A stretch of DNA of 47,285 nucleotides from Anaerolineae bacterium (lineage in GTDB: Bacteria > Chloroflexota > Anaerolineae > Anaerolineales > Villigracilaceae): assembly GCA_018648685.1 (NCBI GenBank), contig JABGQT010000082.1:1-47285 (forward strand), in the 5' to 3' direction. Positions 10,938-41,777 of the stretch are shown piece after piece; the stretch's first letter is position 1; each line of letters starts with the position of its first letter. Both the position numbers and the translations under genes were made by a program. Below the pieces are notes generated by a model. It saw nothing but the letters and a program-made list of their open reading frames with translations. It was not told the origin of the DNA and ran no database searches.

Positions 10938-10955
10938 ACCTGCCCTTTTCTTTTT
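10921..10955. terminator. Bidirectional terminator between murI and the convergent lipoprotein gene
   Basis: A near-perfect palindrome, aaaagggcaggttt/aaacctgccctttt (about 10922-10949), spans the murI stop codon. It is followed by cttttt on the plus strand and by a T tract on the minus strand as well, so it can end transcription from both sides. The lipoprotein stop codon is at 10954-10956. Confidence 0.88.
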
Positions 10956-11946
10956 AGCGGAATGTGGGGCGAGAGGGAATTGACGCTTCAAAACCGCCCA
11001 GGTCACGACCGGCTTGGGGCCATTCGCCGCGTGAAATTTGGCGCGTAAGCCCGTCTATGGAGCCGCCAAATCTTTGAAGTTGGGGACCGCCATTTGCCAA
11101 AATGCTGGCTTGTGCATTTGCGCCTAGCTGGGCAATTTGAAACATCTCGTTCTTGTCTATTTTTCGATCACCAAAAGATGTTTTGACAGCATCAAGATAA
11201 TCGTGCAATTGAGTGAGCGTGCCGTTTCGATCACCTGCGATCTCATTGGGCACCATATTCGCAAAGGTGTTTTCACGATCTTGCAAATTGCTTTTGACCT
11301 GCTCCAGGAATTGGTCGCGGTCTGCTTGCGATTCAGCAATATGCGTAGTAATTGATGTCGCGGCTTCGTTAAGCTGCTCTATGGCGGCTGTGGCGACTTC
11401 TGCGCCTTGTACGAGAAGATCTTCGACTTCTTCAAGGGCATAGATCAATGCATCGAGATCTTCTTCGACAGCCGTAAGCAGATAGAGCATATCTTCAGCA
11501 TAGGCGCCATAAAGATCATAATAAGCCGCTATAAGTTCATCGGCATAATAAATGGCAGCTTCAGCATCGTAGATGTATTCTGCTGTCTCGTATACTTCTT
11601 CGCTAGTCATTGTGCCATCAGAAGTAGCTTGCATGGTTGCTGTCGAAGAGGCTTCTGTCGCGACTACAGCTTCTTCTACAGCTTCATCTATTAGCGTAGC
11701 GAGTTCCTCTTCACTCAGCTCGTAGTAATCCACTGTAGAGCCTGGTGTAGGCGTAGGGGGCATGGCAACGACTGTGGCAGCAACGGCATTATCTACAGCG
11801 TTATCAAATTCGGCTTGCGCTGTTGCGGTTGCAGCAACAGCGGTCATTACCTGATCGTCCACGCTGAGGATTGGCTCTGCACCACCACCACAGGCGGCAA
11901 GGGATATTGCTAAAACAAGAAATATCACAAGGCTTTTCTTTTTCAT
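10954..11946 (-). CDS. Acidic, alpha-helical lipoprotein of unknown function
   Basis: 330-residue predicted lipoprotein. The signal peptide MKKKSLVIFLVLAISLAAC ends in a lipobox with C19 as the lipidated residue. The mature part starts with an Ala/Thr-rich linker ending in PPTPTPGS. A long, strongly acidic helical region follows (many E, D, A, Y; for example ELSEEELATLIDEAVEEAV and AVEEDLDALIYALEEVEDLL), likely a coiled coil. A less acidic C-terminal part contains FGGSIDGLTRQISRGEWPQ. I do not recognise a named family. The TPTP-type linker is common in Chloroflexota lipoproteins. A ggagg site precedes the ATG, and a TATAAT lies on the minus strand at 11982-11987. Alone in its operon. Confidence 0.75.
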   Translation of the reverse strand: MKKKSLVIFLVLAISLAACGGGAEPILSVDDQVMTAVAATATAQAEFDNAVDNAVAATVVAMPPTPTPGSTVDYYELSEEELATLIDEAVEEAVVATEASSTATMQATSDGTMTSEEVYETAEYIYDAEAAIYYADELIAAYYDLYGAYAEDMLYLLTAVEEDLDALIYALEEVEDLLVQGAEVATAAIEQLNEAATSITTHIAESQADRDQFLEQVKSNLQDRENTFANMVPNEIAGDRNGTLTQLHDYLDAVKTSFGDRKIDKNEMFQIAQLGANAQASILANGGPQLQRFGGSIDGLTRQISRGEWPQAGRDLGGFEASIPSRPTFR

Positions 11947-12068
11947 TTTTCCTCCGTTAAAATAAATTCAGAACAACAGAGATTATATAGTAATCATCTT
12001 GCCTTTATCTTCCCCCATTTTTCCCAAATAACTACCCTGCGGCATAATCAAGAGGAATATTTGTACAA

Positions 12069-12127
12069 AACCTTGCGAGAGTTCCTTTTTTCACGGCGCA
12101 ATTCTTCAATTCAACTCTCGCAAGGTT
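12069..12127. repeat. Inverted-repeat element, copy 1 (15-bp arms aaccttgcgagagtt)
   Basis: aaccttgcgagagtt (12069-12083) and its exact complement aactctcgcaaggtt (12113-12127) flank a 29-base loop. The same two arms with a 28-base, diverged loop recur at 41146-41203. Here it lies between the DUF4173 gene and the lipoprotein gene, where it may also terminate transcription. It could be a MITE/REP-like element or a structured RNA; no target-site duplication is obvious. Confidence 0.75.
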
Positions 12128-12151
12128 GGATTATTGCAAATATCTTGTTTG

Positions 12152-13708
12152 CTAATCGCAGTAATAGAATTTTCCTTCTGGCGTTCGTACCCTTCTGTAG
12201 CCATTCATATTGTAGCCAAGTAAATCACTCTCTACCTCCTTCAAAGATTGCCTTGCTTGCCAATGCGAAAGATTAAAGGAGCGCCAATCAAGCATCGGCT
12301 GATTTGTAGCGGTATGGACAAAACAAAGCAAAGCGGCCCCAATACCTTCGTGGACAGATTCGGGCAGCGTGGAAAGCATAAATTCATCCGCTAAAACAGG
12401 AACAGCATCTGTTGAAAGTGAAGTCAAGTGCGTTACGTTAAAGTGTCTCCCTTGTGATGCGCGTAATATATTATGCTTTGCAATAGAGGCATCTATATTA
12501 ACCAGCGTAAGAGAAACAGCAAAACCCAGCGATGCAATTACGGCGGATAAAGCAAAAAACTTCTGGCGCTTGAATACTTCAAGAAAAGCCACTGTTAGGA
12601 GTAGCAGTCCAAGCCAAATCAAAAAAACGCGAGGATAGAGACGCAAGCGAGAAAAACCATGCCATTGAATACCCAAAGTAATCCGATGATAGGCTGAAAC
12701 TAAAATTATCAAAACCTGAACAACAATAAAAAGACTTAGCCCAGAATAAACATATTGTTGCTTTGCTGTTCCTCGATAAGAAAAAGAACTCAACCCAAGA
12801 ATTAGCACTAAACTAAAGAAGGCGACAGTGATCAATTCGTTAAAGCCTCTGCGCGCATACTGAGAAAAGGTATAGCCCTCTACGCCAATATTCTCTGTGC
12901 CTCCAAAAAAATATTGGAACTGAACAATAACAAAGAGAAGGAAAAGTGTCGCAACACTTCCTAAAACAATAGAAGATTCAATAAACCCTAAAAGCCTTTT
13001 CTTTTTCTCGCCATCTACTTCAGCCACCTTCCTGTCATAGCTTGAGAACGCCGCATGAAGAAAAGCACCACCCACAAGATAAGCACAAAGCAAAGCAAGA
13101 ACAGAGCGCCAAATTGTTTCCGATATCTGCTCTCCACTGAAATTCTCGAAGAAATCGCTTAGTTTTTGGGCAAAAACCAAATCAGCTGAGGCCAAGAGTG
13201 ACGAAAAAAGAATCACGATCGGCAAAGCGATCAGTATGCCTCGCAATACAGGTCGAAGAGGAAAGCCGTTTTCTTTCTCAGCGCCATTCTCCTTTTCTCG
13301 CCTGCGTACTTGACCGATCATTTGACCTGAACGCACAACCATACTTCCAGTGAAAACAAGGATTTTCATAAAATAATCCGTGAGACCGTAGAAAACCCAG
13401 CTCCCTCCGTTCCAGGTATTTCCCAACACAGCCAACAGAAAAAACGTAAAGAGATAAGCGAGAAAAAGAGTAAGTGGCTCTTGACGAAGGAAAGTGCTTA
13501 CAGAAAAAAACATGATCGGCACAAGCAACCATATACTTCTTCTCGCGGGACGAAGGTTTTCCTTCAAAAGAAAATATCCAGCCCCAATCAAAACAAGTTC
13601 TAAAAACAAGACAAAATTAACTCCCACGGGACTTTCCCAGAAGAGAAAGTCAAATGTCCATGCGAGTAAAAGAAGGACAATAAAAAAGCGTTTTGGATTT
13701 TTTAGCAT
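12152..13708 (-). CDS. DUF4173 (DUF4153-like) multi-pass membrane protein
   Basis: 518-residue membrane protein with about a dozen hydrophobic segments and a short hydrophilic tail containing LDWRSFNLSHWQARQSL and a terminal GYRRVRTPEGKFYYCD. The layout resembles the DUF4173 family: paired short helices at the N-terminus, a basic loop (MIGQVRRREKENGAEKENG) after about residue 140, and the GLSSFSYRGTAKQQYVYSGL region. Function is unknown; some relatives sit beside two-component systems, but none is present here. The ATG at 13708 (MLKNPKRFF) has aggga upstream; the in-frame start at 13747 would pass that site. A minus-strand TATAAT inside ggcgtataatacgcc (13777-13790) may be its -10. Confidence 0.72.
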   Translation of the reverse strand: MLKNPKRFFIVLLLLAWTFDFLFWESPVGVNFVLFLELVLIGAGYFLLKENLRPARRSIWLLVPIMFFSVSTFLRQEPLTLFLAYLFTFFLLAVLGNTWNGGSWVFYGLTDYFMKILVFTGSMVVRSGQMIGQVRRREKENGAEKENGFPLRPVLRGILIALPIVILFSSLLASADLVFAQKLSDFFENFSGEQISETIWRSVLALLCAYLVGGAFLHAAFSSYDRKVAEVDGEKKKRLLGFIESSIVLGSVATLFLLFVIVQFQYFFGGTENIGVEGYTFSQYARRGFNELITVAFFSLVLILGLSSFSYRGTAKQQYVYSGLSLFIVVQVLIILVSAYHRITLGIQWHGFSRLRLYPRVFLIWLGLLLLTVAFLEVFKRQKFFALSAVIASLGFAVSLTLVNIDASIAKHNILRASQGRHFNVTHLTSLSTDAVPVLADEFMLSTLPESVHEGIGAALLCFVHTATNQPMLDWRSFNLSHWQARQSLKEVESDLLGYNMNGYRRVRTPEGKFYYCD

Positions 13709-13834
13709 CTTAGATCTCCCTAAGGTTTTGGGAGACTGATCCCCCAAAATTTTAGCAAAATTTCAATTTAATCTTGGCGTATTATACGCCTTTTTTCACC
13801 TACTAACATTTTTTGTTTATACTCGCAATCCCTC

Positions 13835-22745: not shown

Positions 22746-22842
22746 AGACCCGAAAGGTTTCAATCGCACTGTTTTTGAATCAAGTTCTATGCTTTCAAAG
22801 ACTTCTTATCAAAAACGCACCCAAATAAAACCTTTCGGGTCT
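22746..22842. repeat. 97-bp element with 15-bp perfect inverted arms
   Basis: agacccgaaaggttt (22746-22760) and its exact complement aaacctttcgggtct (22828-22842) flank a 67-base AT-rich centre. It fills almost the whole gap between the zinc alcohol dehydrogenase-like gene and the GT-C gene. The arms and length suggest a small non-autonomous repeat or a long RNA hairpin. No T tract typical of terminators is present. Only one copy is in the window. Confidence 0.7.
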
Positions 22843-22844
22843 CA

Positions 22845-23873
22845 TTAGATTTCTAAAGTTATTTTTCCCATTTGCTCATTCGCTTCGAGTCTCTCGTGCG
22901 CCAATTTTGCGTCTTTGAGCGGGAAAGATCTATCCAGCACGGGGCGCAATTTTCCTGCCACGACGAGCGACATGACTTCGTTAAAGTCTTTCAGCGTCCC
23001 CATCGTGGAGCCGATGATGGAAATATGTTTGGCGAAAATATAGCGGTTGTCTATCTCAAATTGCGGGGCGGCGGTGTTACCCACTGTCAGCAATCTCCCT
23101 CCCTTTTTCAGCGCACGGAAAGATTGCGGGAAGGTTGTGCCGACATTATCTACAACCACATCCACGCCTTCTCGGTTTGTCAATTTATAAACTTCTTTGG
23201 ACCAATTATCTGTTTTGCTGCGATCTATCAGGATATCTGCCCCCAAACTTTCTGCCAGCGCCAGCTTTTTCCCGTCAGAGCCGATCACGATTGGGCTTGC
23301 TCCCGTCAAACGGGCAATTTCTATGCTGGCAGTATTTACGCCACCCGATGCACCTACAATGAGCACTTTCTCGCCCGGACGCAATTTTCCGCGCGTGATG
23401 AGGGAGTGCCACGCTGTTTGGTAAACGAGAGATGCCGCAGCCGCGGCGTGGAAATCGAATGAATCGGGCAAGGCAAAAAGTTGTTTTGACGGAACCAAGA
23501 CAAAATCCGCGTATGTGCCGTGGATGGTCTCTCCGAGCAGATGCCAATTGTCGCAGAGGTTATCTTGCCCAGCGCGGCAAAAATCGCAGTCGCCGCATCC
23601 CAAATTGGCGTTGATAACGACTCTATCGCCGACTTGCCACCCATCTACATCTTCGCCGAGAGCGGCAATCTCTCCTGCCCCATCTGCGCCTAGAATATGG
23701 GGTAAATTGAGCCTAAGCCCAGCCCAGCCTGCGCGGACAAAAAGATCGACACGATTAAGAGCCGCCGCGTGAAGTTTGACCAAAACCTGCCCGTTGGCGG
23801 GTTCTGGCGTAGGGAAATCAGCGTATTTGAGAACGTCTGGGGAACCGTGTTCGTGAAAGAGGATTGCTTTCAT
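22845..23873 (-). CDS. Zinc-type medium-chain alcohol dehydrogenase / quinone oxidoreductase family protein
   Basis: 342-residue MDR-superfamily NAD(P)-dependent oxidoreductase. The GroES-like N-domain carries GADGAGEIAALGEDV, and a structural-zinc lobe has four cysteines (CGDCDFCRAGQDNLC). The Rossmann fold has VLIVGASGGVNTASIEIAR. The catalytic-zinc residues normally at Cys/His/Cys positions are not all evident (AALNRVDLFVRAGW lacks the usual Cys), as in the quinone-reductase-like members that retain only the structural zinc. The substrate is unknown. The ATG overlaps the GT2 stop as ATGA, so it is translationally coupled to a glycosyltransferase. Confidence 0.85.
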   Translation of the reverse strand: MKAILFHEHGSPDVLKYADFPTPEPANGQVLVKLHAAALNRVDLFVRAGWAGLRLNLPHILGADGAGEIAALGEDVDGWQVGDRVVINANLGCGDCDFCRAGQDNLCDNWHLLGETIHGTYADFVLVPSKQLFALPDSFDFHAAAAASLVYQTAWHSLITRGKLRPGEKVLIVGASGGVNTASIEIARLTGASPIVIGSDGKKLALAESLGADILIDRSKTDNWSKEVYKLTNREGVDVVVDNVGTTFPQSFRALKKGGRLLTVGNTAAPQFEIDNRYIFAKHISIIGSTMGTLKDFNEVMSLVVAGKLRPVLDRSFPLKDAKLAHERLEANEQMGKITLEI

Positions 23874-40528: not shown

Positions 40529-41098
40529 CTAACGTGGTACTTTGTGGTGTTCGCGGCAGCGCGCTTCATAGAGTTCGTCTGCCCCAACGATCACAACCGG
40601 GTCATCATATTTGGCAGGCTCTCCGTTCACAAGCCGTTGTGTTCGGCTGGCATCATCTCCGCAGACAACGCAGATGGCACGCAACTTTCGTACTTTTTCA
40701 GCTTTTGCCATGAGCGCAGGTATGGGACCAAAAGGCTCAGCGCGAAAATCTGTATCTAGCCCTGCGACAATAACGCGCAAACCACTTTCGGCGAGTTTTG
40801 TAGCAACACTAATGATGCCTTCATCAAAAAACTGTGCTTCGTCTATCGCAATAACGGTAGCATCTTCTTCAAGGCGGTTTAGAATTTCACTGCTGTTTTC
40901 AACAGGCAGCGCATCAAATTGCGCCCCAGCATGAGAAGTTACCTTTTCAACAGCATAACGAATATCAATAGCGGGCTTGAAAACTTGAATTTTCTGTTTT
41001 GCGATCGTAGCGCGGCGCAAACGGCGAATTAATTCATCCGTTTTGCCGCAAAACATTGAGCCTGTGATGACTTCAATGGATCCATTATTATGCTTCAT
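40529..41098 (-). CDS. tdk: Thymidine kinase (type II)
   Basis: 189-residue thymidine kinase. The P-loop is GSMFCGKT (13-20), the catalytic Glu is in [11 protein letters not shown], and the lasso region and zinc-binding cysteines are in [14 protein letters not shown] and ARCREHHK. It phosphorylates thymidine or deoxyuridine for dTTP salvage. caaggagtagc precedes the ATG. It is the first gene of tdk-hpt-cca; the 15-bp inverted-repeat element at 41146-41203 lies about 50 bases upstream of its start. Confidence 0.95.
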
Positions 41099-41145
41099 GC
41101 TACTCCTTGAATAATGCCTGAATAAACAAGTAAAAGATTTGAAAA

Positions 41146-41203
41146 AACCTTGCGAGAGTTTTCCTTCCGAAGCGTTGAACTCAAAATCAACTCTCGCAAG
41201 GTT
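41146..41203. repeat. Inverted-repeat element, copy 2 (15-bp arms aaccttgcgagagtt)
   Basis: aaccttgcgagagtt (41146-41160) and aactctcgcaaggtt (41189-41203) flank a 28-base loop. The arms are identical to those at 12069-12127, while the loops differ but keep a tcctt start. It lies between rpmE and tdk. Confidence 0.75.
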
Positions 41204-41242
41204 AATTTATGGGCAATCTATATAACCCGTCCTATAACATAA

Positions 41243-41272
41243 AATGGGCAGATGCAAAAGCCTCTGCCCATT
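41243..41272 (-). terminator. Terminator after rpmE
   Basis: On the minus strand aatgggcaga (41272-41263) pairs with tctgcccatt (41252-41243), followed by a short T tract. It ends the rplU-rpmA-rpmE operon, 38 bases after the rpmE stop. Confidence 0.75.
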
Positions 41273-41309: not shown

Positions 41310-41777
41310 TTACTCGTCGGCTTCGGGAAGATCGTATCCCATTGTGCGCAACGCTTTTTTCGCGTCAATTAATGATTTTTGACCAAAGCCAGAAATTGCA
41401 AGCAATTCTTTTTCGCCTTCAGCGTATTTAGCCATAAAATCACCAACATTAGTAATGCCAGCTTTCAACAAAGAATCGTTCGCTCTTTTGCTCAGCCCTA
41501 ACTCGTCAATGGATCGAGTCGGGGAAACAAGTGCTTGCTCCTTTGCTGTTTTTTCCTGGACATATTCTTCGCGAGCCTGCAAACGTTTGTAGAAGCGATC
41601 AACTTGACCTTCGGTATCGACAATTCGCTGCAAATCGCCTGTATAAAAAGGATGACAATTGGAACAAATTTCAGTCTTGATTTCAGGCTGGGTAGAACCG
41701 GTCTTCCAAGTGTTTCCGCAAGCAGCGCAAGTCACAGTGGATTCCGAAAAATATTTGGGGTGAATCTTGGGTTTCAT
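41310..41777 (-). CDS. rpmE: Ribosomal protein L31 fused to an RNAP alpha-CTD-like helix-hairpin-helix domain
   Basis: 155 residues, about twice the usual L31 length (66-80). The N-terminal part is a zinc-type L31: [11 protein letters not shown]17-x2-C20 (TCAACGNTW), C38-x2-C41 ([15 protein letters not shown]) and VDRFYKRL. After a charged linker, residues 89-150 ([48 protein letters not shown]) line up with the C-terminal domain of the RNA polymerase alpha subunit. By eye, the positions of E. coli alpha R265, G296, K298 and S299 correspond to R98, G132, K134 and S135, while N268 is Asp. aaaggaaag precedes the ATG. It is the third gene of rplU-rpmA-rpmE, with a terminator downstream. Confidence 0.93.

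Follow-up and report, generated by a model that had tools for sequence, protein, structure and literature searches.

Two short inverted repeats in a 47,285-nt stretch of Anaerolineae DNA (the window) are probably the cores of two diverged copies, W1 and W2, of a non-autonomous, MITE-like DNA transposon of ~110–120 bp; the probability of this reading is put at roughly three in four. The family appears to be low-copy, decayed and MITE-like, and the transposase that mobilized it may have been of IS5 type (YTAR). The element is unusual mainly for inner arms that stayed identical while the rest drifted. Features are compiled in Table 1.

Table 1. Features of the two element copies and their surroundings in the window.
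Feature	Coordinates	Strand	Remarks
Open reading frame	10954..11946	-	next co-directional frame beside the DUF4153 gene; no Pfam match
Element copy W1	12041..12160	+	left end GGCATAATCAAG, right end TCGCA; bounds from alignment to other copies
Left inner arm of W1	12069..12083	+	AACCTTGCGAGAGTT
Loop of W1	12084..12112	.	29 nt; 79% identity with C91 loop
Right inner arm of W1	12113..12127	-	
DUF4153 gene	12152..13747	-	stop codon 12152-12154 inside W1 right end
Thymidine kinase gene (tdk)	40529..41098	-	downstream of W2
Element copy W2	41119..41226	+	BLAST 41119-41203, model 41112-41249, alignment; right end approximate, outer inverted repeat undetectable
Left inner arm of W2	41146..41160	+	
Loop of W2	41161..41188	.	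28 nt
Right inner arm of W2	41189..41203	-	
Hairpin after L31-like gene	41243..41272	-	kept in sister genomes
L31-like gene	41310..41777	-	ribosomal protein L31 and RNA polymerase alpha C-terminal domains

The earlier note had located both dyads correctly, with 15-bp arms that are perfect and letter-for-letter the same at the two places, and its remark that the loops are only weakly alike holds as well (13 of 28 aligned letters identical). With up to three mismatches allowed, the window contains seven arm matches, whereas 100 shuffles average 1.39. Inverted repeats that are perfect over 15 bp and have spacers of 9–40 nt occur four times, both dyads among them, against none in each of 20 first-order simulations. 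Another perfect dyad with long spacing (AGACCCGAAAGGTTT / AAACCTTTCGGGTCT, 67-nt loop, 22746–22842) adjoins a zinc-binding dehydrogenase gene (22845–23873, minus strand), with two bases between it and the stop codon; the arm of this dyad is contained in 0 of 107 fetched loci.

The source genome (3,561,898 bases in 215 contigs, 88.51% complete) holds 27 arm matches at up to two mismatches, against seven for the reversed control. Six dyads with loops of 28–30 nt are present, W1, W2, C38, C54, C66 and C91, with one mismatch each in the right arms of C38 and C66. Both copies reported earlier are real, but they are two of six; the idea that they would be ordinary terminators if they were the sole copies genome-wide and coincided with mapped transcription ends fails on copy number. 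BLAST of the genome with C91 retrieves the same six, with identities to C91 of 87% over 110 bases for W1, 78% for C54, 77% for W2, 76% for C38 and 72% for C66, and elsewhere gives only short matches with E values of 0.033 or more. A second genome of the genus, G005, carries two dyad copies (G005-C111 and G005-C43). Among 60 relatives, own genome included, the exact dyad matches in these two genomes. Of 150 family genomes, three (own, G005 and G008) contain the 11-bp arm pair at a spacing of 5–35, and five have hits at E ≤ 0.1 to the full covariance model, whose training set was the six own copies plus one from G005. Model hits in G008, G007 and G012 were dropped as tight-loop hairpins, and a 23-base match in G002 as a coding-like stretch, judged by eye. 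The exact dyad matches no viral contig, and W1 has no match in plasmid and phage collections.

Similarity among the copies extends past the arms by ~28 nt on the left and ~23–33 nt on the right, and the aligned flanks make the hairpin the core of an element of ~110–120 bp. The unit of 58–59 bp described before was right in its arms and loops but incomplete. The covariance model covers 12034–12168 at W1 with 121 bits, W1 being a member of the training set. The left terminus of C91 has the sequence TGCATAATCAAGAGAGATATTTG, and its right terminus, when reversed, TGCATTTACAAACAAG. Terminal inverted repeats are weak: comparison of left and reversed right ends over 2000 shuffles gives p below 0.05 in five of seven tested copies (W1, 0.0025; C54, 0.005; C91, 0.008; C66, 0.0085; G005-C111, 0.0485), and outer repeats are undetectable by the same test in W2 (p = 0.77) and C38 (p = 0.48). 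By local alignment scores alone, the ends of C91 stand out and those of the other copies do not.

Target duplications, which the earlier note had proposed to look for, are seen in part. The same four bases, of the type YTAR, bound both ends in three of the eight copies (CTAG/CTAG in C91, TTAA/TTAA in C66 and CTAG/CTAG in G005-C111); two others have such a 4-mer at one end only (TTAG in C54, CTAA in C38), and no flanking repeat is recognizable in W1, W2 and G005-C43. CTAG and TTAA are self-complementary and could be read as parts of the element ends instead; duplications are favoured because the bases differ between copies yet agree within a copy. G005-C43 (locus L020, 776–833), which adjoins a Tex-like gene, has the dyad and the loop with no recognizable outer ends.

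Of W1 and W2, the two copies examined for this, W2 alone has a readable element-free site. This copy sits between tdk and the hairpin that follows the L31-like gene, a hairpin not called by the terminator scan with loops of 3–8. The order tdk, spacer, hairpin and L31-like gene is common to the own genome and six relatives, and DNA similar to the two-domain gene adjoins tdk in relatives. The tdk spacer measures 147 nt in the own genome, against 116 nt in G008, 82 in G007, 65 in G004, 63 in G002, 55 in G005 and 29 in G001, and the arm core is absent from all six sister spacers, which lack the element. These spacers are too diverged for the exact W2 target to be recovered, and that of G008 is only 31 nt shorter than the own one. 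G006 gave the tdk side only, and G003 no match. In three relative loci compared with the W1 region by nucleotide BLAST, the neighbour gene has nothing similar to DUF4153 beside it, so that no empty site is readable in the loci tried. The dispersed copies, the outer similarity, the 4-bp repeats in three copies and the element-free sites in relatives support the non-autonomous mobile element proposed at the outset, except that the arms are most likely not its recognized ends, which would be located farther out.

The copies are short, dispersed and gene-free, as in MITEs. W1, W2, C38, C66 and C91 are located between co-directional open reading frames, and both G005 copies between convergent genes; C54 has no frame of 80 aa closer than 350 nt. 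Orientation relative to the genes is variable, and the neighbouring genes encode a variety of products (GNAT acetyltransferases, a response regulator with an HD domain, RNase HII, a Tex-like protein and thymidine kinase). A stop codon stands directly at the element edge in four of the eight copies (C38, C66, C91 and G005-C111). Targeting of stop codons was rejected as not significant, with p = 0.18 for four of eight and p = 0.05 for five of eight when W1 is counted as a possible fifth, since the compact gene layout makes stop codons 29% of the tolerated sites; in this test, confined to the window and a hand-picked gene list, YTAR-form sites comprise 26 stop codons and 63 intergenic sites.

Stop codons exactly at the edge of four of the eight copies would also suit transcription terminators or 3′ mRNA-stabilizing hairpins, in which the stem itself is under selection. 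T runs on the strand read (six in W2, five in C38 and five in C54, with the two T of the arm counted) point the same way, as do two hairpins of G008 that combine the same 13-bp stem with tight loops and T tails. This reading is nevertheless improbable: the loops measure 28–30 nt, the first eight bases past the stem contain 1–4 T in all eight copies, the copies vary in orientation to the genes, compensatory changes are missing and the hairpin after the preceding gene already stands ahead of W2. Intrinsic terminators have a short loop and then a run of T, a combination that the copies do not display, and this form of the reading is poorly supported. Terminator scans call neither dyad, and as they admit loops of 3–8 only, loops of 28–30 nt are outside their reach. 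Rfam covariance models give no match in the window at gathering score. The G008 hairpins (L068, 1548–1578; L071, 1524–1554) differ from the element, which has long loops and mostly poor tails; their shared 13-bp stem and T tails suggest that such a stem can belong to ordinary terminators in the genus. Locus L064 contains a near variant of them in which both arms changed together.

The transposon reading has to accommodate a marked unevenness in conservation. Identity is 98% in the inner arms and 57% in the remainder of the element. Pairwise identities over seven copies amount to 315/315 for the left arm, 303/315 for the right arm and 261/601 for the loop, and outside the dyad to 400/590 on the left and 386/681 on the right; between W1 and W2, 30/30 arm positions agree, against 47/84 elsewhere. 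The best run of 15 non-arm columns reaches 72%. Compensatory base changes occur in 0 of 15 pairs among the seven sequences, which weakens the selected RNA hairpin that the earlier note had listed as an option. Together with the contrast between arms and rest, this makes it seem, from the alignment, that the letters of the arms are kept and not merely their fold. Collecting the copies initially through their arms introduces a bias towards conserved arms, but whole-element BLAST and model searches produced no arm-diverged copies. From a plain MITE one would not expect the inner arms to be better preserved than the outer ends.

The loops behave differently. Forward identities are high for C38–C54 (87%), C91–G005-C43 (86%), W1–C91 (79%) and W1–G005-C43 (77%), and similarity is weak or missing in the remaining loop pairs of the 28. 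The loop of G005-C111 (L030, 1501–1629) aligns locally with the reverse complement of the C54 loop (p = 0.0005) and of the C38 loop (p = 0.011), values that are uncorrected and were picked after viewing 28 pairs in two orientations, with a global score of z = 1.9; judged by this match, it may be inverted relative to C54. An inversion in G005-C43 was dropped, its flanks being without similarity to C91 in either orientation. Small inversions in plastids likewise flip a loop between inverted arms of 18–19 bp, as described in an excerpt of PMC6342102; the loops there measure 5 and 9 bp, against ~29 nt and one supported case here.

Conceivably, and in keeping with the protein-binding dyad among the options of the earlier note, a host protein or recombinase binds the inner dyad, which would be selected as DNA, and the similarity of the flanks is hitch-hiking. 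The same figures (arms at 98% against 57% elsewhere, no other run of 15 columns above 72%, no covariation), the suggestion of loop inversion and the core of G005-C43, which persists with 86% loop identity to C91 and no flanks, would all fit. Six copies per 3.56 Mb are few for such a site, the neighbours belong to diverse Pfam families and the gathering of copies by their arms favours conserved arms, even if whole-element searches gave no arm-diverged copies; this explanation is improbable as well. Somewhat akin to it, and unlikely, is the proposal that the inner 15-bp dyad, not the outer ends, is the recognized unit: a DNA-binding protein or recombinase would fix the arms, the loop would drift and could flip, and the stem would be shared with the terminator-like hairpins of the genus.

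For the preferred MITE-like transposon, the YTAR motif points to IS5-like elements. YTAR is ascribed to IS701 as well, and IS711 is a member of the IS5 family. Parents of the IS630 (TA) and IS701 types were unsupported by the PF13358 and PF13546 searches. PF13358 has two hits in the own genome, one at a contig end, and neither is similar to the element ends; PF13546 has no hit there and eight hits in four of nine genus genomes, and an exact YTAR-TGCATAA end accompanies none of the eight. An autonomous partner sharing the ends of the element was thus not found via PF13358 in the own genome and PF13546 in the nine genomes. At eleven further places in the own genome, a sequence close to the left end occurs, but it is neither preceded by YTAR nor hit by the model.

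Comparison with known systems places the element among small repeats of a familiar kind. In the sections of PMC2229807 and PMC10969869 that describe them, ERIC, Correia/NEMIS and RUP elements are likewise short, mostly intergenic, with terminal inverted repeats, target duplications and stem–loop transcripts, and ERIC also sits at gene 3′ ends. Copies are far fewer here than, for example, the 108 of RUP, 4-bp YTAR repeats replace the TA ends given in those descriptions, and the inner 15-bp dyad is better conserved than the ends. YTAR is shared with IS5, whose motif it is in part of PMC10359306, and with IS711, for which part of PMC2266754 gives it as the target, with TA duplicated; the element differs in having no transposase. 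Truncated REP-like MITEs of Coxiella (QMITE2), as characterized in a portion of PMC10969869, yield copies that, minus ends and duplications, resemble bare palindromes, as G005-C43 does. REP and REPIN sequences are defined by a RAYT transposase and a high copy number; the element has six copies in the own genome. Integron attC sites were set aside by inspection.

A scenario can be proposed on these grounds. A DDE transposase acting in trans, perhaps that of an IS5-type element targeting YTAR, would have inserted the copies where insertion was tolerated, either between genes or at stop codons; movement would then have ceased, and the family would now be decaying. If transcribed, the 15-bp stem would fold into a stable hairpin, often at the 3′ end of a gene, and may influence mRNA decay, by analogy with what an excerpt of PMC10969869 relates of ERIC and Correia elements. 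That a sequence-specific binding protein spares the inner arms from decay is a guess.

The 13-letter arm piece does not occur in the literature searched, which likewise yielded nothing combining miniature inverted-repeat, Chloroflexi and Anaerolineae. As a low-copy MITE-like sequence, the element is ordinary in kind; its one real oddity lies in the invariant inner arms. What began as an odd pair of hairpins becomes a seemingly undescribed repeat family of Chloroflexota, and the opposition between invariant inner arms and decayed ends raises a testable question, namely what such palindromes are kept for.
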